Assembly (NCBI GenBank): GCA_003213175.1
Contig: QCNN01000001.1
Span: forward strand, 1-64,000
Direction: 5' to 3'
Length of the DNA: 64,000 nucleotides
Source of the DNA: SAR116 cluster bacterium AG-426-B08
GTDB lineage: Bacteria > Pseudomonadota > Alphaproteobacteria > Puniceispirillales > Marisalimonadaceae
Below, in pieces: positions 14,511 through 25,183 of the stretch (within the stretch, counting starts at the first letter, position 1; the number at the start of each line of letters is the position of its first letter). The position numbers were made by a program, and so were the translations under genes. Below the pieces are notes generated by a model. The model was given only the letters and a program-made list of their open reading frames with translations, was not told the origin of the DNA and did not search any database.

Positions 14511-15272
14511 TTATTCATTTTTTTTTTCTTCAAAATATTTTTCTATCATTAACTTTCTTTTCTTAAGTTTTTCATTAGCAGGTATCAAGTTAATCATTTG
14601 ACCTTCTTTAACATTACCTAATTTAATCATCAACATACTAGAGAGTAAGTTTAAGCAAACTTTTTGGGCTGTGCCAGCCTTCAATCTTGTAGATCCTGCA
14701 ATAACTTCTTGTTTTGTATCAAGGATTATTTTTATTTTTGCTTGATCTAAAATGTATCCTTTTGGATTATTACTTATTGCAATAGTAAGTGCTCCATTTT
14801 TTGACGCCAATTTTAAAATTTCTCCAGTAAACTTTGTGTTCCCACTCGCTGCTAATCCAATAACTACATCGCTATTTTTAAAAATTTTATTTTTTACAAC
14901 TAGCTTGGCATTTTCAACATCATCCTCAGAGTTTTCTATGGATTTTGTTAAAGCCTCTTTTCCTCCTGCTAGGATATAATCAAGTCTTTCAATTGGCCAA
15001 CCAAATGTTGGATACAACTCTACTCCATCCTGTACACCTATCCTGCCTGAAGTTCCCGCACCACAATAAATTATTTTGCTTTTATCATTTTTTTTTAAAT
15101 GAGTATAAATTAATTTTACAGCTTTTTCTATTTTTCTTAGACTTTTTCTTACTGACAAAATACCCTTTTCATGATCCCTTAACATTAATTTAAGAGCATC
15201 TATAGTAGGCAATTTGTCAACAGGTACAGAATTAGTATATAACATTTCTGTTTTTGAAATTTTTTCATTCAT
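14511..15272 (-). CDS. murQ: N-acetylmuramic acid 6-phosphate etherase, C-terminally short
   Basis: Cleaves the lactyl ether of MurNAc-6-phosphate to GlcNAc-6-phosphate in cell-wall recycling. The SIS domain has GAGTSGR at residues 71-77, the catalytic glutamate E85 in DGVELYPTFG, the second acidic site SEDD at 115-118, ASGNTKFT and GSTRLKAGTAQK near residue 190. At 253 residues it lacks roughly the last 45 residues of typical MurQ (about 300). There is no room for a frameshifted tail because manC starts 30 bases after the stop. It is divergent from anmK with only 17 bases between starts, an arrangement consistent with joint control. Confidence 0.9.
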   Translation of the reverse strand: MNEKISKTEMLYTNSVPVDKLPTIDALKLMLRDHEKGILSVRKSLRKIEKAVKLIYTHLKKNDKSKIIYCGAGTSGRIGVQDGVELYPTFGWPIERLDYILAGGKEALTKSIENSEDDVENAKLVVKNKIFKNSDVVIGLAASGNTKFTGEILKLASKNGALTIAISNNPKGYILDQAKIKIILDTKQEVIAGSTRLKAGTAQKVCLNLLSSMLMIKLGNVKEGQMINLIPANEKLKKRKLMIEKYFEEKKNE

Positions 15273-15289
15273 GAGTTAAATATATTTAA

Positions 15290-16399
15290 ATGGTTCAAAT
15301 TAAGAAAGATAAATTTTTAAATATAATAGGATTGATGTCAGGAACTAGTCTAGATGGAATAGATGTTAGCCTGGTTAAATCAAATGGAAAGGAATTGTTA
15401 TCTTCAAAAAAAAATTATTATTTCAAATATAAAAATAATGTAACTGAAGTCTTAAAAAGGGTTTTGGAGAATTATAAAAACATTCTTAGTAATGAAGATT
15501 TAAAAAATAAACTTGATAATTTTATAACTAACTTACATTTAAAAGCAATTATACAATCTGGATTTCTTAATAAATCTGATTATATTGGCTTTCATGGTCA
15601 AACTATTTTTCATGAACCAAAGGTAAAAAGCATCCAACTTGGAAACCCTCAAATGCTCGCAAATTTATTAAAAAAAATTGTGGTGTTTAATTTCAGGTCA
15701 AATGACATTTTTAATAATGGTCAAGGTGCTCCATTGGCACCCATCTATCATAAAATGATTATTCAAAAAAATAAAATTATATTACCCTCATGTTTTTTAA
15801 ATATAGGAGGCATTTCAAATATTTCATATTGGGATGGTAAATCTTTAATAGGTTTTGATACTGGCCCAGGTAATAATCTGATGGATAATTATATTCAATT
15901 AATGACCAATAATAAATTTGATCTAAATGGCGAAATTGCATCAAAAGGTAAGGTAAATAAAACTTTATTAAAAAAATTTCTATCAAATAATTACTTTCAA
16001 AAACCTTTTCCTAAATCTTTAGACAAATATTATTTTAATAATGAATTTAATTCTTTTAAACAAATAGATATCAAATTGTCAGATGCCATGTCTACATTGG
16101 CTGAGATAACAATATCATCTATAATTGATTCTTTTAAACTTTTTCCAAAATTTCCAAAAAGTATGATCATCGCTGGAGGAGGGTATAAAAATAAATATTT
16201 AACTAATCGACTCAAAGAAAAAATAAATATTTCTTTTTATGATTTAAATGAATTTAATCATGACCCAGATTTCATAGAATCTGAACTAATTGCTTTTTTA
16301 GCTGCTCGCACAATTAGAAAAATTCCAATAACTTTTCCAAAGACAACAGGGGTGAAACAACCTTTAACTGGGGGGGAAGTTTTTAATCCAATATTATAA
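15290..16399 (+). CDS. anmK: anhydro-N-acetylmuramic acid kinase
   Basis: Opens the 1,6-anhydro ring of anhydroMurNAc and phosphorylates it to MurNAc-6-phosphate, the MurQ substrate. The 369-residue kinase of the sugar-kinase/actin fold begins with IGLMSGTSLDGIDV at residues 13-26; HGQTIFHEP, FRSNDIFNNGQGAPLAP, INIGGISN-like sequence, GFDTGPGNNLMD and a C-terminal GGGYKNKYL region are all in place. It faces away from murQ and its last 6 bases overlap the convergent PIG-L gene. Confidence 0.94.
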   Translation: MVQIKKDKFLNIIGLMSGTSLDGIDVSLVKSNGKELLSSKKNYYFKYKNNVTEVLKRVLENYKNILSNEDLKNKLDNFITNLHLKAIIQSGFLNKSDYIGFHGQTIFHEPKVKSIQLGNPQMLANLLKKIVVFNFRSNDIFNNGQGAPLAPIYHKMIIQKNKIILPSCFLNIGGISNISYWDGKSLIGFDTGPGNNLMDNYIQLMTNNKFDLNGEIASKGKVNKTLLKKFLSNNYFQKPFPKSLDKYYFNNEFNSFKQIDIKLSDAMSTLAEITISSIIDSFKLFPKFPKSMIIAGGGYKNKYLTNRLKEKINISFYDLNEFNHDPDFIESELIAFLAARTIRKIPITFPKTTGVKQPLTGGEVFNPIL

Positions 16400-17083
16400 G
16401 AATCCATTTTTTTGGCTAATATGAAATGGTCTAATTTTCAATGATGGTGGTAATAAATTTCTAATATCTGAAAATGGAAAAGATTTTTCATAATAATATG
16501 CCTCAGCATATGTGCCCAAAGGTGCATTACACTGAGCTGCTCTAAAACTATTCATTAGCTTTATTAAATTAACAAATCTTTCTGGACTTTGGCTTTCATG
16601 TTTACGAATAGCTATAATTTTTTCTTTGTAAAATTCCGTAATATCAATGAAATAACAAGGGTTAAAATTTATCCCCATCATTGTATCACAATAAATTATC
16701 GGTATATAATGGCTTGCTACCTGCTTAACCAATTTTGAGAGATTTATATGATCCGAATGATAATCTTTTTCATAGTGAGTAATAATTAGATCCGGTTCAA
16801 TTTCTTCAATATTTTTTTTTATTTTAATTAAATCATTACTTAAATACCCTAAGTTACCATCTCTTAGATTTAATAATTTCAAAATACCTAAATTCTTCAG
16901 AGCTTTTTTAGTTTCTAATGCTCTTATACCAGACAAATTATTATTAACATTTATTCCACCTTGGCTTCCATCAGTAGCAACAGTTAAAAATATTTCATTC
17001 CCATTTTTTTTGAAACATGAAAGGATTCCATACATAAATATTTCAATGTCATCTGGATGAGCTCCAATCGCTAAAACTTTCAT
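16394..17083 (-). CDS. PIG-L (LmbE-like) family zinc deacetylase
   Basis: Predicted cytoplasmic N-acetyl amino-sugar deacetylase. The 229 residues begin with VLAIGAHPDDIEI, whose AHPDD motif supplies zinc ligands and the general base, and contain a second metal motif HSDH near residue 108; DGSQGGI and the MGINFNPCYFIDIT segment also fit. Known members act on GlcNAc-PI, GlcNAc-inositol (MshB) or small chitooligosaccharides (BshB-like). It lies 51 bases downstream of a formyltransferase on the same strand, suggesting sequential removal of an acetyl and addition of a formyl group. Its neighbours murQ and anmK allow an alternative role in GlcNAc salvage. The substrate is not known. Confidence 0.85.
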   Translation of the reverse strand: MKVLAIGAHPDDIEIFMYGILSCFKKNGNEIFLTVATDGSQGGINVNNNLSGIRALETKKALKNLGILKLLNLRDGNLGYLSNDLIKIKKNIEEIEPDLIITHYEKDYHSDHINLSKLVKQVASHYIPIIYCDTMMGINFNPCYFIDITEFYKEKIIAIRKHESQSPERFVNLIKLMNSFRAAQCNAPLGTYAEAYYYEKSFPFSDIRNLLPPSLKIRPFHISQKNGFL

Positions 17084-17959: not shown

Positions 17960-19117
17960 ATGATAAAGTTTGAAAAAAATATATTTGGATACATTGAAGG
18001 ATACTATGGAAATATTTTAGATTGGAAGTCTAGAAAAAGAATTATAAAAAAAATGAACTCATTGGGCTTGAATTCCTATTTTTATGCCCCAAAAGAAGAT
18101 ATTTATCATAGATTGCATTGGAGAAAAAATTATACTAAATCTTGGCAAAATAATTTCAAAAACTTTTGTTCGTTCGCAAATGAGAATAATGTTCAAGTAA
18201 TCGTTGGTTTGTCGCCAGGTTTAGATTTTAATTATAATAATATTTTAAAAAAAGATATTGAATTAATTAATAAAGATTTAGAAATTTTACTAAATAAATT
18301 TCAATCCTTAATAGATAATGGAGCCAATCATGTGGCATTACTTTTCGATGATATCGAAGTTAACTTTAGAAAATACCTCCCCAAAAAAATCGAGGGGTTA
18401 GTTCATGCAGAATTAATTAATATTGTATCAGACAAACTTAAAAAAAATATCTTCTCTGTTCCAAGAATATATTCTGATGAATTAATTAGAGAAAATAATG
18501 AGTATCTAAAGTGTTTTTTTGAAAAGCTAAATGATCAAACAAATATTTTTTACTGTGGTAAATATATTGTTAACAACAAATTCGACACAACTTTAAAATT
18601 AATTATTGAAAAAAAGAAAAAAAATAAAGTTATTTTTTGGGATAATTATTATGCTAACGATTATTGTCCTAAAAGACTAATTTTAGGTCCTTGGTTGATT
18701 AATGAAGAAATAAAAAAAGTAATGCTTAATTTAACCGGAATGATCGAAACAGATTTATTGATAATGGAAATAGTATCAAAATGTAAATTTTCAAAAAATA
18801 AAAAAGAAAGTTGGAAAAATGTACTAAAAATAAATAAAGTACCTGAAGAGTTTTTGGCAATATATAAATTTTTTGAAAAACCTAATCTTTCAAGTGATAA
18901 GAAAATTAAAGAAATTAAAATTGACAAAAATATATTTGATAAAATTGATAAACTTCTATGGAAATGGAAAACACCTTTGTCAAGGGAGTGGTACCCATAT
19001 CTACTAAGCCTTAAACAAGATTTACAAATTTTAAATGATGAATTACCATCTAATAGAATTTTTAAAACACAAACTTACCCTTTAGCTAAAAAATTTTTAA
19101 AAATTGATGGAGTATAG
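17960..19117 (+). CDS. cytoplasmic GH84-family beta-N-acetylglucosaminidase
   Basis: Predicted retaining hexosaminidase using substrate-assisted catalysis. The 385-residue protein shows the GH84 signature from its first residues: GYIEGYYG at 10-17, YFYAPKEDIYHRLHWR at 40-55, VGLSPGLDF near 82-90 and the paired catalytic aspartates D130 and D131 in LLFDDIEVNF. There is no signal peptide and only the catalytic barrel plus a short helical tail, unlike the large secreted bacterial members. The start at 17960 brings the catalytic domain almost to the N terminus. Near anmK, murQ and ampG, a NagZ-like role cleaving GlcNAc from GlcNAc-anhydroMurNAc is inferred. The next gene starts 3 bases downstream. 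Confidence 0.88.
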   Translation: MIKFEKNIFGYIEGYYGNILDWKSRKRIIKKMNSLGLNSYFYAPKEDIYHRLHWRKNYTKSWQNNFKNFCSFANENNVQVIVGLSPGLDFNYNNILKKDIELINKDLEILLNKFQSLIDNGANHVALLFDDIEVNFRKYLPKKIEGLVHAELINIVSDKLKKNIFSVPRIYSDELIRENNEYLKCFFEKLNDQTNIFYCGKYIVNNKFDTTLKLIIEKKKKNKVIFWDNYYANDYCPKRLILGPWLINEEIKKVMLNLTGMIETDLLIMEIVSKCKFSKNKKESWKNVLKINKVPEEFLAIYKFFEKPNLSSDKKIKEIKIDKNIFDKIDKLLWKWKTPLSREWYPYLLSLKQDLQILNDELPSNRIFKTQTYPLAKKFLKIDGV

Positions 19118-19120
19118 ATT

Positions 19121-19990
19121 ATGCAAAAAGTTGGTTTCATTGGATTAGGAAATATGGGAAAAGGGATGGCCCAAAATTTATCAAAAAATAACATTCAAAT
19201 TTCAGGTTTTGATGTTGATAAAACAGTTTTTAATAATTTAAAAGATAATAAAATTAAACAAGAAAAAAGTTTAGAAACATTAGTTAAAAATAACGAAGTT
19301 TTAATTACTATGTTGCCTGATGGACCAATAGTTAAAAACGTTTGGGAACAACTAATTAACCATTCAGACCAAGATAATATTCTAATAGATTGTTCTACGA
19401 TAGATGTTGAAACTTCTATGTATGTTCAAAAACTAGCAAATAGTGAGGGAATTAAAACTCTAGACGCTCCTGTATCAGGAGGTGTGATGGGAGCTGATTC
19501 TGGCACTTTGACATTTATGGTAGGTGGTAATTTTGATACATACTCGAGTTGCAAATATTTATTTGATATAATGGGTAAAAACTCAATCTTGTGTGGTGAA
19601 AATGGAGCTGGACAAAGTGCAAAAATTTGTAACAACATGCTGTTAGCATCAACAATGATAGCAGTTGGGGAAAGTTTTAATTTGGCAAAAAATTTAGGGC
19701 TTAATTTAGAAAAACTATTTGAAGTATTATCAACTTCTAGTGGTTCGTGTTGGGCTATAAACAATTACTGTCCTTATAAAGGTATAGGTCCTGACAGCCC
19801 TGCAGATAAGAATTATGATGGTGGTTTTGCCACATCCTTAATGAATAAGGATTTGTCATTAGCAATTTCAGCCGCAAAATCAACAGATACAAAGGTTAAT
19901 TACGCGTTACAATCTCAACATTCTTATGCAAAGTTAGTTGCTGATGGTCATGGTAATTTAGATTTCTCATGTATCGTAGAAAAATTATAA
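19121..19990 (+). CDS. mmsB: 3-hydroxyisobutyrate dehydrogenase
   Basis: NAD-dependent oxidation of 3-hydroxyisobutyrate to methylmalonate semialdehyde in valine breakdown. The 289 residues have the dinucleotide loop GFIGLGNMG at 5-13, DAPVSGGVMGADSGTLTFMVGG near 116-137, the catalytic lysine in KICNNMLLA, and the C-terminal pattern SSGSCW, YDGGFATSLMNKDLSLA that matches true HIBADH better than tartronate-semialdehyde reductases. It follows the GH84 gene by 3 bases, so the two are co-transcribed although the pathway link is not obvious. Confidence 0.9.
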   Translation: MQKVGFIGLGNMGKGMAQNLSKNNIQISGFDVDKTVFNNLKDNKIKQEKSLETLVKNNEVLITMLPDGPIVKNVWEQLINHSDQDNILIDCSTIDVETSMYVQKLANSEGIKTLDAPVSGGVMGADSGTLTFMVGGNFDTYSSCKYLFDIMGKNSILCGENGAGQSAKICNNMLLASTMIAVGESFNLAKNLGLNLEKLFEVLSTSSGSCWAINNYCPYKGIGPDSPADKNYDGGFATSLMNKDLSLAISAAKSTDTKVNYALQSQHSYAKLVADGHGNLDFSCIVEKL

Positions 19991-20011: not shown

Positions 20012-22063
20012 TTAATGAGCTAAACCAGCTAACATTAATATTGCTACAATATTTATGATCTTAATCATAGGATTTATCGCGGGACCTGCTGTATCTTTAT
20101 ATGGATCTCCGACGGTATCACCTGTTACCGCAGCTTTATGTGCTTCTGAACCCTTACCACCATGATTCCCATCTTCAATATATTTTTTTGCATTATCCCA
20201 TGCTCCCCCACCTGCGGTCATAGAAATTGCAACAAATAATCCAGTTACAATAGTACCCAACAACATTGCACCAACAGCTATTAAAGCTGATTGTTGATCA
20301 TACAAAGAAATTAAAAAGTAAAGTACAATTGGTGCTAGCACAGGAAGTAATGAAGGAACAATCATTTCTTTTATAGCTGATTTAGTTAGCAAATCAACTG
20401 CTTTACTATAATCAGGTTTTGCTTTTCCAGTCATTATTCCTGGTATTTCTTTAAATTGCCTTCTAACCTCTTTAACTACTTCTCCGCCTGCTCTTCCTAC
20501 TGCTGTCATTCCCAATGCCCCAAAAAGATAAGGCAACATTCCACCGATTAGTAAACCCACAACAACGTTTGGATCAGATAAAGAAAAGCTTATATCTAGG
20601 TCAGGAAAATAATACTTTAAGTCATAAGTATACGCTGAAAATAAAACTAATGCTGCCAAACCAGCTGAACCAATAGCATAACCTTTAGTTACTGCTTTAG
20701 TTGTATTACCAACTGCATCAAGTGCATCTGTTGTCTTTCTTACTTCATCGTCTAAGTCGCACATCTCAGCAATCCCACCTGCATTATCAGTTACAGGGCC
20801 GTAAGCGTCTAATGCTACTATCATACCAGCTAAGGCAAGCATTGTAGTTGCTGAAATGGCAATTCCATAAATTCCATTGAGATGAAATGACACTAAGATG
20901 CCTACAGCAATTATAATTGCCGGTATTGCAGTTGCTTCTAAAGAGATAGCAAGGCCTTGTATTACATTTGTACCATGGCCTGTTTCAGAGGATTGAGCAA
21001 TTGACCTTACAGGTCTATATTCTGTTGAAGTATAATATTCTGTTATCCATACTATTAAAGCAGTAACTATCAAGCCTACAACAGCACATAAAAAGTATGA
21101 GAGATAATTATCTACAAAAATTGATTTAGAAACAAAAAATATCAATACAGCAGAGACTATAGCAGTTACAATTAATCCTCTATAAAGAGCACTCATAATG
21201 TTATTATTAGATCCAAGTTTAACAAAAAAAGTTCCAATGATAGAAGCTAAAATGCAAACTCCTCCAATTATAAGAGGATATTCCATACCTTTGATAATAT
21301 CTGAGCCAGTAAAACTGATTGTTGCTAACAGCATGGTAGCTACAATTGTAACTGCATAAGTTTCAAAAAGGTCAGCAGCCATTCCGGCACAATCTCCAAC
21401 GTTATCACCAACATTGTCAGCTATAACGGCTGGATTTCTTGGGTCATCTTCAGGAATTCCAGCTTCAACTTTACCCACTAGATCAGCTCCTACATCTGCT
21501 CCTTTTGTAAAGATACCTCCACCAAGTCTGGCAAAAATTGAGATTAGAGAAGCTCCAAAAGATAACGCTACTAATGCTTCAATCAAATCTCTAGTATCAA
21601 CATTTATTTCTCTCAAAAAAACATAATAACCTGTTACACCAAGTAGTCCAAGTCCAACAACCAACATACCTGTTATTGCCCCTGATTTAAAAGCTATATC
21701 TAACGCAAGCACTAAACCACTTTTTGCTGCTTCAGTGGTTCTCACATTTGCTCTTACAGATACATTCATTCCAACATATCCAGCAACACCTGATAATATT
21801 GAACCTAAAACAAAACCTATTGCTACAAATTGACCTAAGGTTAAAAATAATAAAATAGTAACAACAACTCCAACAATTGCGATAGTAGAATATTGTCTAT
21901 TTAAATACGCTTTTGCACCTATCTGAATAGAAGACGCAATCTCAATCATTTTTTTTGTGCCTGAAGAAGCTTTTAGAATTTGGTTTGTAGCCCAAATCCC
22001 GTAAAGAACGGCCAAAACCCCAAAAATCAGTGTCAAAGTTATAAAATCCATGTTTGTTACCAT
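20012..22063 (-). CDS. hppA: K+-independent membrane-bound proton-translocating pyrophosphatase
   Basis: Hydrolyses pyrophosphate and pumps protons across the cytoplasmic membrane. The 683-residue integral membrane protein has the substrate-binding loop [44 protein letters not shown] around residue 185 (quoted here only as its landmarks [14 protein letters not shown] and DNVGDNVGD), plus a second acidic set near [15 protein letters not shown]-type sequence at the C terminus. The segment [10 protein letters not shown] carries Lys and Thr at the two positions that separate K+-independent from K+-dependent enzymes (Ala and Gly/Ala there). About 15-16 membrane spans are expected. It is a single-gene unit. 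Confidence 0.95.
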
Positions 22064-22144: not shown

Positions 22145-22687
22145 CTAATTAATTTGAATTTTACATTTAGAATTTAACTTTTCACACAAATACAACAAGT
22201 TTTTTTTGTTTATAGCAATACAACCTTTAGTAGCTCTTAAATCATTGAAGCTACAATGAAGAAAAATTGCACTTCCTTTACCTTTTATTACTGGTTTAGT
22301 ATTATAGTTTAAAACTACAAACAAATCATATGCGTTATCTTTTCGATATAAGAATTCATAATTTACCTGTTCTTTGGTATTAAGTTTACTAATTTTGATA
22401 TACTTATTATAACTTACATTTTTTATATCATCACACCACCCACAATCTTTTGTGATTTTTCTAGCTTTGTACTTTAAAGATCTATTTTTTTTTAAAAACT
22501 TAATTTTATCTTTTCTAATAAATATACTTTCTAAACTCCATAAACCCATAGGTGTGCATGAGTCTCCCTCTTTTTTTTTGTAAAATGGTATTTTCCCATT
22601 TGCACCAATTTGACAATTAAAGACCTTTTTATTAAAAATTAATTTTGATCTTTTGTGTCCGAATACTCTGATTTTTTTTATATTCAT
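22145..22687 (-). CDS. YkuD-fold L,D-transpeptidase/L,D-carboxypeptidase-like protein without signal peptide
   Basis: A 180-residue protein of the L,D-transpeptidase catalytic (YkuD) fold. It shows GDSCTPMGLW near residues 41-50, DCGWCDD at 81-87, a GSAIFLHCS histidine motif (H144) and the nucleophile cysteine C156 in TKGCIAIN. The N terminus (MNIKKIRVFGHKR) has no hydrophobic stretch, so it is probably cytoplasmic, whereas crosslinking L,D-transpeptidases are exported. It is divergent from ampG with 88 bases between starts. I infer a trimming role on imported muropeptides, like the cytoplasmic YkuD-family carboxypeptidase ElsL of Acinetobacter; an unrecognised export route would change this. 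Confidence 0.82.
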   Translation of the reverse strand: MNIKKIRVFGHKRSKLIFNKKVFNCQIGANGKIPFYKKKEGDSCTPMGLWSLESIFIRKDKIKFLKKNRSLKYKARKITKDCGWCDDIKNVSYNKYIKISKLNTKEQVNYEFLYRKDNAYDLFVVLNYNTKPVIKGKGSAIFLHCSFNDLRATKGCIAINKKNLLYLCEKLNSKCKIQIN

Positions 22688-22775
22688 AACTTTTAATTTA
22701 ACATATTTAAATTAAATTTAATGAATTGTTATTAAAAAATTCCATTTCAAAAAGAATTATCATAAAATTTACACT

Positions 22776-24173
22776 ATGATTATTAGTAGAAAACCAGCTG
22801 TAAAAGAAATAATAGATTCTTATTTCGATTACAGGATGTTAAAAATTTTACTTCTTGGGGCAATAAGCGGCTTTCCATGGGTTTTAATAGGATCAAGTCT
22901 TAGTTTATGGTTAAAGGAAGAGGGTTTAAGTAGAAGCACCATTGGTTGGGCAGGTCTAATTTTTGCTGTTTACGCCTTTAATTATTTATGGGCACCATTA
23001 ATTGACAGACTCAAAATTCCATATCTTACGACAAAATTGGGACATAGAAAATCTTGGATAATTTTGATGCAATCTTTAATTATATTTTGTCTTGTAATGT
23101 GGAGTTTAGTAGACCCAAAGACAAATTTAATATTTATAATTTTAATAGGATTAATTATAGCAATATCTTCTGCATCCCAAGATATTACTGTTGATGCCCT
23201 TAGAATAGAGCAAATAAAATCTAATGAAAAAGCAGCAATGGCAGCCGGTGCTTCTATAGCTGTTGTTGGTTGGTGGAGTGGATATAAACTTGGTGGTTTA
23301 TTATCACTGACACTCGCCGACTTTTTAGAAAAATCTGGTTATGATAATTATTGGCAAATCACATTCCTTTTTCTTGGTTTTGTAATTGTCTTATTTAACC
23401 TTGGATTATTATTTATTAAAGAAAGTGATTTTCACACAAAAAATCAAACCCATTTAAAATTAGATAGAGAATTTGAGAAAAAATTAAAATCACAAAATTC
23501 ATTTTTCAATTTTCTTTCCTCGATGAAAATAAATTCATTTGTTGCATGGATTTCATCAACAATTATTGGGCCTATTCTAAGTTTTTTTAAAAAAAATGGC
23601 TTTTCAATTGCTCTTGGAATTTTAGCATTTATTTTTTTGTTTAAAATTGGGGAAGCATTTTTAGGAAGAATGTCCGTTATTTTTTATAAAGAAATGGGTT
23701 TTTCAAAAAGTGACATTGGTATCTTCTCTAAAGCACTTGGTTGGATTACCACAATTATATTTACTATCTTAGGCGGTATTTTTACCATTAGATCTGGAAT
23801 AATAAAATCACTATTTGTCGCTGGAATATTTATGGCTATTACAAATATACTTTTTTCTATCTTAGCTTGGTATGGGAAGTCTTATTTAATTTTTTCAATT
23901 GCAGTAATTTTAGATGATATTGCTGCAGCCTTTGCAACAGTAGCTTTTGTAGCATTTATTTCATTGTTAGTAGATAGAAATTATACAGCTACACAATATG
24001 CACTTTTGGCCTCTATAGGTACTGCAGGTAGAACTACACTGGCATCTTCATCAGGTTCTTTGGTTGATTTTTTAAATGGTGATTGGGGTCTCTTTTTTAT
24101 CATAACAGCTATTATGGTTATCCCTTCTTTGATTTTATTATTCTTCATTAAAAATAAAATTAGGTTGAATTAA
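22776..24173 (+). CDS. ampG: AmpG-family muropeptide permease (MFS)
   Basis: Inner-membrane importer of GlcNAc-anhydroMurNAc peptides. The 465 residues form about 12-14 membrane spans. Landmarks of AmpG are GFPWVLIGSSLSLWLKEEG near residue 34, YAFNYLWAPLIDRL, LGHRKSWI in the loop after span 2, and ASQDITVDALRIEQ near residue 133, which is a family signature. It is divergent from the YkuD-type gene and is followed by a possible terminator hairpin. With anmK, murQ and GH84 nearby, a muropeptide substrate is well supported. Confidence 0.92.
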   Translation: MIISRKPAVKEIIDSYFDYRMLKILLLGAISGFPWVLIGSSLSLWLKEEGLSRSTIGWAGLIFAVYAFNYLWAPLIDRLKIPYLTTKLGHRKSWIILMQSLIIFCLVMWSLVDPKTNLIFIILIGLIIAISSASQDITVDALRIEQIKSNEKAAMAAGASIAVVGWWSGYKLGGLLSLTLADFLEKSGYDNYWQITFLFLGFVIVLFNLGLLFIKESDFHTKNQTHLKLDREFEKKLKSQNSFFNFLSSMKINSFVAWISSTIIGPILSFFKKNGFSIALGILAFIFLFKIGEAFLGRMSVIFYKEMGFSKSDIGIFSKALGWITTIIFTILGGIFTIRSGIIKSLFVAGIFMAITNILFSILAWYGKSYLIFSIAVILDDIAAAFATVAFVAFISLLVDRNYTATQYALLASIGTAGRTTLASSSGSLVDFLNGDWGLFFIITAIMVIPSLILLFFIKNKIRLN

Positions 24174-24229: not shown

Positions 24230-25183
24230 TTGCAATTTGATAAATACAAGAAAAAAACTTTTTCTAAAGATTGGAATAATTTCGAAAAACAGTCCAAGTA
24301 TTCAAGTGGCTTTGCTTATTTTTTAAAAAAGACTAAAAACTTTTTTTACAAAATTTTAGGATTTAAAATCAGTCTTAAAATTATAAAATATAACGAATTT
24401 AAAAATGAAGAGTTCAATTCCTATCAGATTGATAAAGATATCATTATTTACAGAAATAGATTAGCTAATGAAACAATAAAAAACTTTTTATTAAAATTTA
24501 ATATCAATTCTAAAAAAACTGAGATAATCAATTTCATAAATCAATATCAAAAACTATTTTATAATAGCCCAATAAAAGATTTAAGAAGTGGCTATGGTTA
24601 TAATGAAGGTTTAATTTTATATTGTACTTTAAAAAAAATTAAACCTACCTTAGTTGTGGAATCTGGTGTAATGAAAGGATTTTCCACGTATATAATTCAC
24701 CATGCAACTTCAAATGATTGCAAAATTTTTTGCTATGATATCAACTTTGACAATTTAATTTTTAAATCAAATAAAGCTCAGTATTTTAATCATGATATAA
24801 CACTGAATCATCCAAACTTTAAAAATCATAACTCTTTTGCTCTATGGGATGATCATACTAGTCATTTGAATAGACTAAAATTTTCTCTTAAGCATAAAAT
24901 AAAATATAATATATTTGATGATGATTTAGGCTTTACCAATTTTCATTCAGATGGTTGGCCTCCGATTCCTTCATTGGCAATGTTGTATGAAATAAGAGAT
25001 AAAGTTATCACTAAAGATGAGGTTGAATGGATATGCAGAAATAAAAAAGGTAAAATTTGGTTATCCAATTTTTCTTCCGACAAATCCATAAATAATATTA
25101 AATATTATCATAATTTCCCTAATCTTTTTTCTATTAGCGGGTACAAAAATAATAGTTGTTCCTCTTTTGTTATGACTAATTAG
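24230..25183 (+). CDS. methyltransferase-like protein of unknown substrate
   Basis: A 317-residue protein with a class I SAM-methyltransferase-like core in its second half: PTLVVESGVMKGFST near residue 140 resembles the glycine-rich motif I, followed by IFCYDIN (acidic end of strand 2) and a later KYNIFDDDLG strand. The first 100 residues are lysine-rich with no recognised domain. The start is a TTG at 24230, chosen because AAGGGG lies 9 bases before it and no ATG is available. Its stop interlocks with that of the convergent glycosyltransferase (TTAG, 4 bases). Placement beside two glycosyltransferases suggests polysaccharide modification. Function is not established; it could instead be a hydroxylase-like relative of this fold. 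Confidence 0.6.
   Translation: MQFDKYKKKTFSKDWNNFEKQSKYSSGFAYFLKKTKNFFYKILGFKISLKIIKYNEFKNEEFNSYQIDKDIIIYRNRLANETIKNFLLKFNINSKKTEIINFINQYQKLFYNSPIKDLRSGYGYNEGLILYCTLKKIKPTLVVESGVMKGFSTYIIHHATSNDCKIFCYDINFDNLIFKSNKAQYFNHDITLNHPNFKNHNSFALWDDHTSHLNRLKFSLKHKIKYNIFDDDLGFTNFHSDGWPPIPSLAMLYEIRDKVITKDEVEWICRNKKGKIWLSNFSSDKSINNIKYYHNFPNLFSISGYKNNSCSSFVMTN

Follow-up and report, generated by a model that had tools for sequence, protein, structure and literature searches.

The locus described here can be compared with three classes of recycling L,D-carboxypeptidase, LdcA (S66), LdcV (a LAS metalloprotease) and ElsL. The reaction that we propose below is the one attributed to LdcA and LdcV, which differ in being unrelated to YkuD. 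ElsL of Acinetobacter baumannii (NCBIfam NF040925) is a leaderless, single-domain YkuD protein linked to recycling through AmpG. Also within the YkuD superfamily, Csd6 of Helicobacter pylori, Pgp2 of Campylobacter jejuni and Bd1075 of Bdellovibrio bacteriovorus have been termed L,D-carboxypeptidases (PMC10653827, PMC4599014, PMC8938487); these three have an NTF2 domain and work on the wall, outside the cytoplasm. DpaA (YafK, LdtF) is likewise a hydrolytic YkuD enzyme but an amidase, cleaving the Lpp-DAP bond.

For the Alphaproteobacteria, the relevant passages of two experimental papers conclude that Caulobacter and Agrobacterium are without a cytoplasmic L,D-carboxypeptidase, on the basis that LdcA orthologues are lacking and that sugar-linked tetrapeptides are found in amidase mutants (PMC13046382, PMC9790009). 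The Caulobacter amidase mutant accumulates anhMurNAc-tetrapeptide, and its authors judge such a carboxypeptidase unlikely (PMC13046382), while the A. tumefaciens ampD mutant accumulates tetrapeptide species that can be trimmed by E. coli LdcA (PMC9790009). Two of the 14 YkuD proteins of A. tumefaciens are reported to have no predicted signal peptide (PMC11527210); our guess is that one of these two, Atu2764, is an orthologue of the protein described here.

The window, by which we mean the whole 64,000-nucleotide stretch analyzed, comes from SAR116 cluster bacterium AG-426-B08 (a 1.47-Mb assembly in 93 contigs, about 52% complete) and contains a YkuD gene, ykuD, divergent from ampG (Table 1). 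The product of ykuD scores 29.7 bits with Pfam PF03734 (YkuD; cut-off 23.4), and together with His144 and Cys156 this match places it in the YkuD superfamily. It is a single domain of 180 residues with no leader and no NTF2 domain; Pfam gives YkuD only, with no S66 domain. Its branch of the superfamily is one that we take to be COG3786. His144 is invariant in all 41 carriers sampled from the order, and Ala158 lies two residues after Cys156, at the position (C+2) where many crosslinking enzymes have Arg. In-frame stops lie close above the ATG and leave no room for a longer start with a signal peptide, and no hydrophobic stretch was seen by eye in the N terminus, MNIKKIRVFGHKRSKLIFNKK. The first-pass annotation, made from the window's sequence, had drawn attention to the interval 22145-22775, which is the ykuD gene plus its spacer; its reading of an intact His144 and Cys156, of an N terminus unable to direct export and of an 88-base spacer shared with ampG is borne out at each of these points, the neighbor being AmpG by TIGR00901.

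Table 1. Features of the ykuD-ampG region (window positions; bit scores with model cut-offs where given).
Feature	Coordinates	Strand	Evidence or remark
murQ, MurNAc-6-phosphate etherase	14511..15272	-	NF003915 (subfamily) 260.9 bits, cut-off 168
anmK, anhydro-MurNAc kinase	15290..16399	+	NF007141 359.3 bits, cut-off 352
PIG-L deacetylase of the island	16394..17083	-	PF02585 86.6 bits
GH84 beta-N-acetylglucosaminidase catalytic domain	17960..19117	+	PF07555 162.9 bits
3-hydroxyisobutyrate dehydrogenase	19121..19990	+	TIGR01692 329.8 bits, cut-off 291.6
Proton/sodium-pumping pyrophosphatase, neighbor	20012..22063	-	PF03030
ykuD, leaderless YkuD-fold protein, candidate cytoplasmic L,D-carboxypeptidase	22145..22687	-	ATG start, 180 aa
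Catalytic Cys156 codon	22220..22222	-	Aligns with Csd6 Cys176
Catalytic His144 codon	22256..22258	-	Aligns with Csd6 His160
Tyr120 codon	22328..22330	-	Aligns with Csd6 Tyr133 (profile alignment)
Glu40 codon, KxEGDxxTPxG motif	22568..22570	-	Aligns with Csd6 Glu110
Divergent spacer common to ykuD and ampG	22688..22775		88 bases
ampG, muropeptide permease	22776..24173	+	TIGR00901 371.9 bits, cut-off 350
Protein without Pfam or NCBIfam match	24230..25183	+	

We assessed the pairing of the two genes in 61 genomes of the order, the window's own and 60 relatives, 24 of the 61 having a completeness of 90% or more. The ykuD gene is present in 41 genomes and an AmpG match in 48 (44 of them exceeding the cut-off); AmpG accompanies every one of the 41 ykuD carriers and occurs alone in seven genomes, 13 genomes have neither, and ykuD never occurs alone. 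The joint absences are weak evidence, as the genes are adjacent and many genomes incomplete. The pairing itself is far beyond chance: ykuD and ampG are divergent in 41 of 41 carriers, which span three families of the order, and are direct neighbors in 40, with a spacer of -6 to 203 nt in 31 of the 32 loci measured and 2465 nt in the remaining one, that of genome G053. A promoter scan of 22600-22860 found two sites against 2.5 expected from shuffled sequence, and thus no excess. The protein encoded beyond ampG has relatives of about 50-97% identity near ampG or ykuD in some related genomes.

The seven genomes with AmpG only are G009, whose missing ykuD is explained by the end of a 3062-base contig, and six genomes of a single genus, g8 (L045-L050; G043 among them consists of one contig), which retain ampG but gave no ykuD match, either genome-wide or within the island. 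As far as the contigs reach, the g8 loci keep murQ in five of six, anmK in four and GH84 in three, and neither ykuD nor LdcA was found in the genus. Since g8 keeps ampG without either enzyme, the carboxypeptidase step would be dispensable there, and the genus offers a natural test of what the YkuD enzyme is for.

The genes around the pair form a recycling island. In other families of the order the gene order is ampG-ykuD-murQ-anmK-PIG-L-GH84; in the taxonomic family of the window's genome a pyrophosphatase and a 3-hydroxyisobutyrate dehydrogenase are inserted between ykuD and the other island genes, the latter as a neighbor seen only in that family and the former probably not part of the recycling pathway. 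In the stretch of sequence available for each locus, tblastn detected all six genes in 12 of the 20 carrier loci from the window's taxonomic family and in 9 of the 12 from elsewhere in the order; several of the incomplete loci are cut by contig ends. The MurQ of the window, assigned by its subfamily model, falls under the cut-off of the equivalog TIGR00274 (199.8 versus 302). The GH84 protein, present in 30 of 39 loci inspected, some of which end at contig ends, can be aligned with O-GlcNAcases across its catalytic domain, where the Asp-Asp pair is conserved, and no signal was seen by eye. Because GH3/NagZ was found in none of the 61 genomes (E. coli and Caulobacter controls positive), GH84 is a good candidate for the enzyme that removes GlcNAc from muropeptides, a non-homologous stand-in for NagZ; our literature search for GH84 in a NagZ role or with anhydro-MurNAc found no such paper. 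The PIG-L deacetylase is likewise common in the island (27 of 39 loci) and might remove the acetyl group from GlcNAc once this is released, or from an anhydro-sugar.

Two further enzymes were sought across the 61 genomes. LdcA (S66) was found in none, with the E. coli control positive, and no genome has an Mpl match above cut-off, the sub-cut-off matches in 51 genomes being read as other Mur ligases. Searching the same genomes with PF03734 gave 40 matches in 39 genomes, of which 39 are the ampG-paired gene and one is partial; this search missed the paired ykuD of G018 and G039, and other divergent YkuD proteins could escape it too. Members of the order thus seem to keep one leaderless YkuD protein beside a muropeptide importer, and as the only other match is the partial one, its use as a crosslinking transpeptidase is unlikely. 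The partial match (L226, G042:C1:1065500-1067300) lies in an 89-residue open frame with the motif TAGCIGV in the single-contig genome G042 and is possibly a broken or divergent gene.

Beyond the order, the protein family of the window's YkuD was surveyed in 153 Alphaproteobacteria with the A1 profile, which was built without motif selection, and was found in 88 (45 genomes, all without a match, are known by count rather than as individual rows). LdcA occurs in 37 of the 153 and AmpG exceeds its cut-off in 101. The family tends to be present where LdcA is not: 9 genomes have both, 79 the family only, 28 LdcA only and 37 neither (Fisher p 3e-6). The pattern persists with about one genome per taxonomic family (8, 60, 23 and 30 of 121 genomes in the same order, p 1e-4), a count that takes G061-G177 as one per family and is the sole correction for phylogeny. 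This alternation suggests that the family performs the same task as LdcA in the class. A second profile, A3, unites the window protein with 79 named relatives (the best 80 of 575). For 54 of these 79 relatives the frame extends no more than 15 codons above the aligned start, which is not enough to encode a signal peptide; for the remaining 25 the measure leaves room for one. Phenylobacterium and a member of the Caulobacteraceae carry the family, and Caulobacter may therefore carry it too.

The nearest solved relatives by sequence profile appear to be Csd6, Pgp2 and Bd1075, at modest E values. PF03734 matched all 80 A3 members (the best 80 of 575) at E 0.01. Against 177635 PDB sequences, the A3 profile gave only four matches at E up to 10, namely two Pgp2 sequences (whole-sequence E 6e-5), Csd6 (1.5e-4) and Bd1075 (8e-4); the matches are weak, with single stretches at E 0.3 to 9, and residues 138-145 are conserved in A3 by selection, members having been gathered with the pattern [KRM]GSAIF[ILF]H[CI]. 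The A1 profile, not so selected, reached only Pgp2, twice, and Csd6 (E 0.001 and 0.007), and a single-sequence search of solved structures gave nothing useful (best E 0.58, an entry not named YkuD). Fold comparison of the predicted structure (mean pLDDT 91, pTM 0.86) gives Csd6 and Pgp2 a small lead but places Bd1075 below both B. subtilis YkuD and LdtMt2, with Z scores of 12.6 for Csd6, 12.1 for Pgp2, 11.2 for B. subtilis YkuD, 10.8 for LdtMt2 and 10.6 for Bd1075. In Foldseek the top three matches were Csd6, Bd1075 and the transpeptidase LdtMt1, in that order; Pgp2 is absent from the 50 matches listed.

The comparison extends to individual residues. All three enzymes share with the window protein the YkuD fold, the catalytic His and Cys and an aromatic residue two positions before the catalytic His, and Csd6 and Pgp2 also share the EGDxxTPxG motif and Ala at C+2, the residue found there in 78 of 80 family members (the best 80 of 575; the counting pattern misread a single row in each of the window's and the ElsL groups). 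Loss of any of six residues is reported to abolish Csd6 activity. By profile alignment only, four of the six are identical in the window protein (Glu40, Tyr120, His144 and Cys156), with Phe142 in place of Trp158, retaining an aromatic at the D-Ala pocket position, and Ser139 in place of His155. DpaA is reported to have Ala at C+2, where many transpeptidases have Arg, and Met at the position of Phe142. The C+2 residue does not by itself decide activity, since ElsL, a proven carboxypeptidase, has Arg there.

Taken together, these comparisons lead us to favor, with reservations, the reading that the ykuD product is probably an L,D-carboxypeptidase of the YkuD fold that works in the cytoplasm, in the muropeptide-recycling pathway of SAR116. 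We infer its enzymatic activity, substrate and physiological role; the computation itself provides its sequence, its lack of a leader, the ampG pairing, the island, the kinship, and an order in which no LdcA, NagZ or Mpl was found. AmpG, made from the other side of the spacer, would import anhydro-muropeptides; Cys156, activated by His144, would attack the meso-DAP-D-Ala bond, and water rather than a second peptide would release the acyl-enzyme, converting tetrapeptide to tripeptide and D-Ala. The GlcNAc would be cleaved off by GH84, serving as a NagZ substitute, and the anhydro-MurNAc handled by AnmK and MurQ. The substrate may be the muramyl tetrapeptide or, at least as likely in our view, the free tetrapeptide left by an amidase step; in a cell with no Mpl, the product would go to breakdown or D-Ala recovery rather than direct re-ligation. 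The candidate L,D-carboxypeptidase of wall recycling proposed by the first-pass annotation therefore stands as the best-supported reading on the strength of profile kinship, pairing, island and LdcA avoidance. Our confidence is held at this level by the lack of an above-cut-off match to Mpl, the usual user of the tripeptide, by the genus that keeps ampG without ykuD, and by the Caulobacter and Agrobacterium results; the unmatched His155 of Csd6 also speaks against a carboxypeptidase. If Caulobacter and A. tumefaciens do carry the family, it must act poorly on sugar-linked tetrapeptides there, and an enzyme requiring free peptide would fit the published observations.

The alternative that survives best, which we consider unlikely though worth keeping in view, is a cytoplasmic YkuD hydrolase with another substrate, for example a DAP amidase specific for glycine or another residue, or a peptidase with a part in degrading free stem peptides to amino acids; the link to recycling would hold, and the protein would not be an equivalent of LdcA. 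With no Mpl found, the peptides may instead be degraded, the fate proposed in Caulobacter and Agrobacterium, and the precedent of DpaA, an amidase with Ala at C+2 that does not release D-Ala, points the same way, as do the two substitutions relative to Csd6. Against this, the solved sequence relatives release D-Ala, Phe142 keeps the pocket aromatic where DpaA has Met, the DpaA NCBIfam model gives weak matches in only 2 of 80 family members (the best 80 of 575), and the avoidance of LdcA suggests the same job as LdcA.

Less probable still is an L,D-transpeptidase for crosslinking or protein anchoring, exported by an unrecognized route or working in the cytoplasm, for example in D-amino acid exchange. 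The Pfam domain is named for this activity, B. subtilis YkuD scores within 1.4 Z units of Csd6 in the fold comparison, and incorporation of non-canonical D-amino acids has been reported for YkuD enzymes. In a 57-row tree, the window's protein family (29 rows, comprising 28 of the 80 A3 rows and an Ensifer relative), ElsL (15 rows) and exported transpeptidases (13 rows) form three separate clades with supports of 100/99, 98/95 and 98/91, respectively. The tree is unrooted and gives no sister pair among the three groups, and the window's family has its longest branch. Clustering with exported crosslinking enzymes, one of two outcomes that the first-pass annotation had said would count against its proposal, was thus rejected for the 13 used; the other, a true start further upstream with a signal peptide, is excluded by the in-frame stops. 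The window protein also lacks the export signal expected of crosslinking L,D-transpeptidases, 54 of its 79 named relatives (among the best 80 of 575) are too short upstream to have one, the usual Arg is replaced by Ala, and the gene sits among cytoplasmic recycling genes, all of which speak against a transpeptidase.

The pairing with ampG could also be inherited gene order without functional meaning, the protein having an unrelated cytoplasmic role, a reading to which we give very little weight. Support for it comes from outside the order, in findings that also count against the favored reading. No ampG was found near the family in 28 loci outside the order, with 1.5 kb inspected on each side; ampG is adjacent in 18 of the named loci (the best 80 of 575) and not in the other 62, of which 57 extend at least 1.5 kb upstream; and all 33 Pelagibacteraceae/Pelagibacterales loci in that set are without an adjacent ampG, 31 of them with at least 1.5 kb upstream. 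Nor are the family and AmpG significantly associated across the 153 genomes (62 with both, 26 with the family only, 39 with AmpG only, 26 with neither; p 0.23), and linked genes vanish together with missing contigs. The conserved pairing that the first-pass annotation proposed to look for in other genomes holds in the order and was not seen beyond it in the loci inspected, and looks like a SAR116 trait. Within the order, however, the pair is kept across families f1, f2 and f4 even where AmpG itself is of a very different type (G005, G021, G027 and G036, in the same place, with 31-35% identity to the window's AmpG versus 54-96% in the other carriers), and it is kept in the window's taxonomic family while the rest of the neighborhood changed through the insertion of the pyrophosphatase and dehydrogenase genes. 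This divergent type of AmpG, beside the island, has 29-35% identity to the window's and a higher TIGR00901 score; it occurs in five genomes of the window's taxonomic family, four of them carrying ykuD (L005, L018, L019, L028, L044), and in three of genus g8 (L046, L048, L050).

The link to ElsL drawn by the first-pass annotation did not hold. A leaderless gammaproteobacterial family was reached from a seed sequence, and one member led to the A. baumannii protein, which has 167 residues and a single cysteine, residue 138, the position mutated in the ElsL paper (PMC8649774). As a positive control this protein scored 328.2 bits against NF040925 (cut-off 270), and three other gammaproteobacterial relatives scored 144-210 bits, below the cut-off. 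The model gave no match at E 10 to the window protein, a relative from the order or the Ensifer relative, and one weak match among 80 A3 members (E 6e-4; the best 80 of 575). BLASTP of the window protein against ElsL gave no meaningful alignment (best E 52), and profile-profile comparison with hhalign gave 34% probability over 59 columns around the active site. A control search of the PDB with the ElsL profile first reached B. subtilis YkuD and entries mostly named transpeptidases, and Csd6 and Bd1075 only at E 1.4 and 0.7, respectively. ElsL has the motif SHGCIRM, with Arg at C+2. That the window protein is a diverged member of the ElsL clade proper, as its similar size, common superfamily, shared lack of an export signal (for the window protein from the closed frame and the N terminus by eye), that one weak match and the action of ElsL downstream of AmpG might suggest, we regard as refuted at the level of sequence family by NF040925, BLASTP, hhalign, the separate clades, the Ala at C+2 and the different solved relatives that the profiles reach. 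A leaderless YkuD protein is not automatically an ElsL, which matters for annotation. In a separate observation, four A. baumannii records in a plasmid collection match the ElsL family (CP040041.1, NZ_CP077849.1, NZ_CP064203.1 and NZ_CP104448.1), three of which, at 3.7-4.1 Mb, look like chromosomes filed as plasmids.

The recycling carboxypeptidase reading has a wider form. By sequence, the window's family appears to be a large branch of leaderless alphaproteobacterial proteins, distinct from ElsL and closer to Csd6, Pgp2 and Bd1075, and our literature searches aimed at this branch found no paper characterizing it, nor any on the recycling of peptidoglycan in SAR116. We raise tentatively, and with more doubt than belief, the possibility that it is a further class of recycling carboxypeptidase beside LdcA, LdcV and ElsL, which would have arisen from a Csd6-like branch independently of ElsL, would occur in more than half of the sampled Alphaproteobacteria (relatives in SAR11 and SAR116 included) in alternation with LdcA, and would supply the carboxypeptidase that the class seems to lack, with free tetrapeptide as its substrate once the amidase has acted; the SAR116 pathway would then have been rebuilt, with GH84 replacing NagZ. 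If this is true and those species carry the family, action on free tetrapeptide would explain the muramyl tetrapeptides of the Caulobacter and Agrobacterium amidase mutants. For the fate of stem peptides in alphaproteobacterial recycling, the YkuD gene is a concrete and widespread candidate, and it comes with a sharp prediction: D-Ala should be released, possibly from free tetrapeptide alone. Both SAR116 and SAR11 abound in the ocean, and their recycling route bears on the saving of nitrogen and carbon in the sea.
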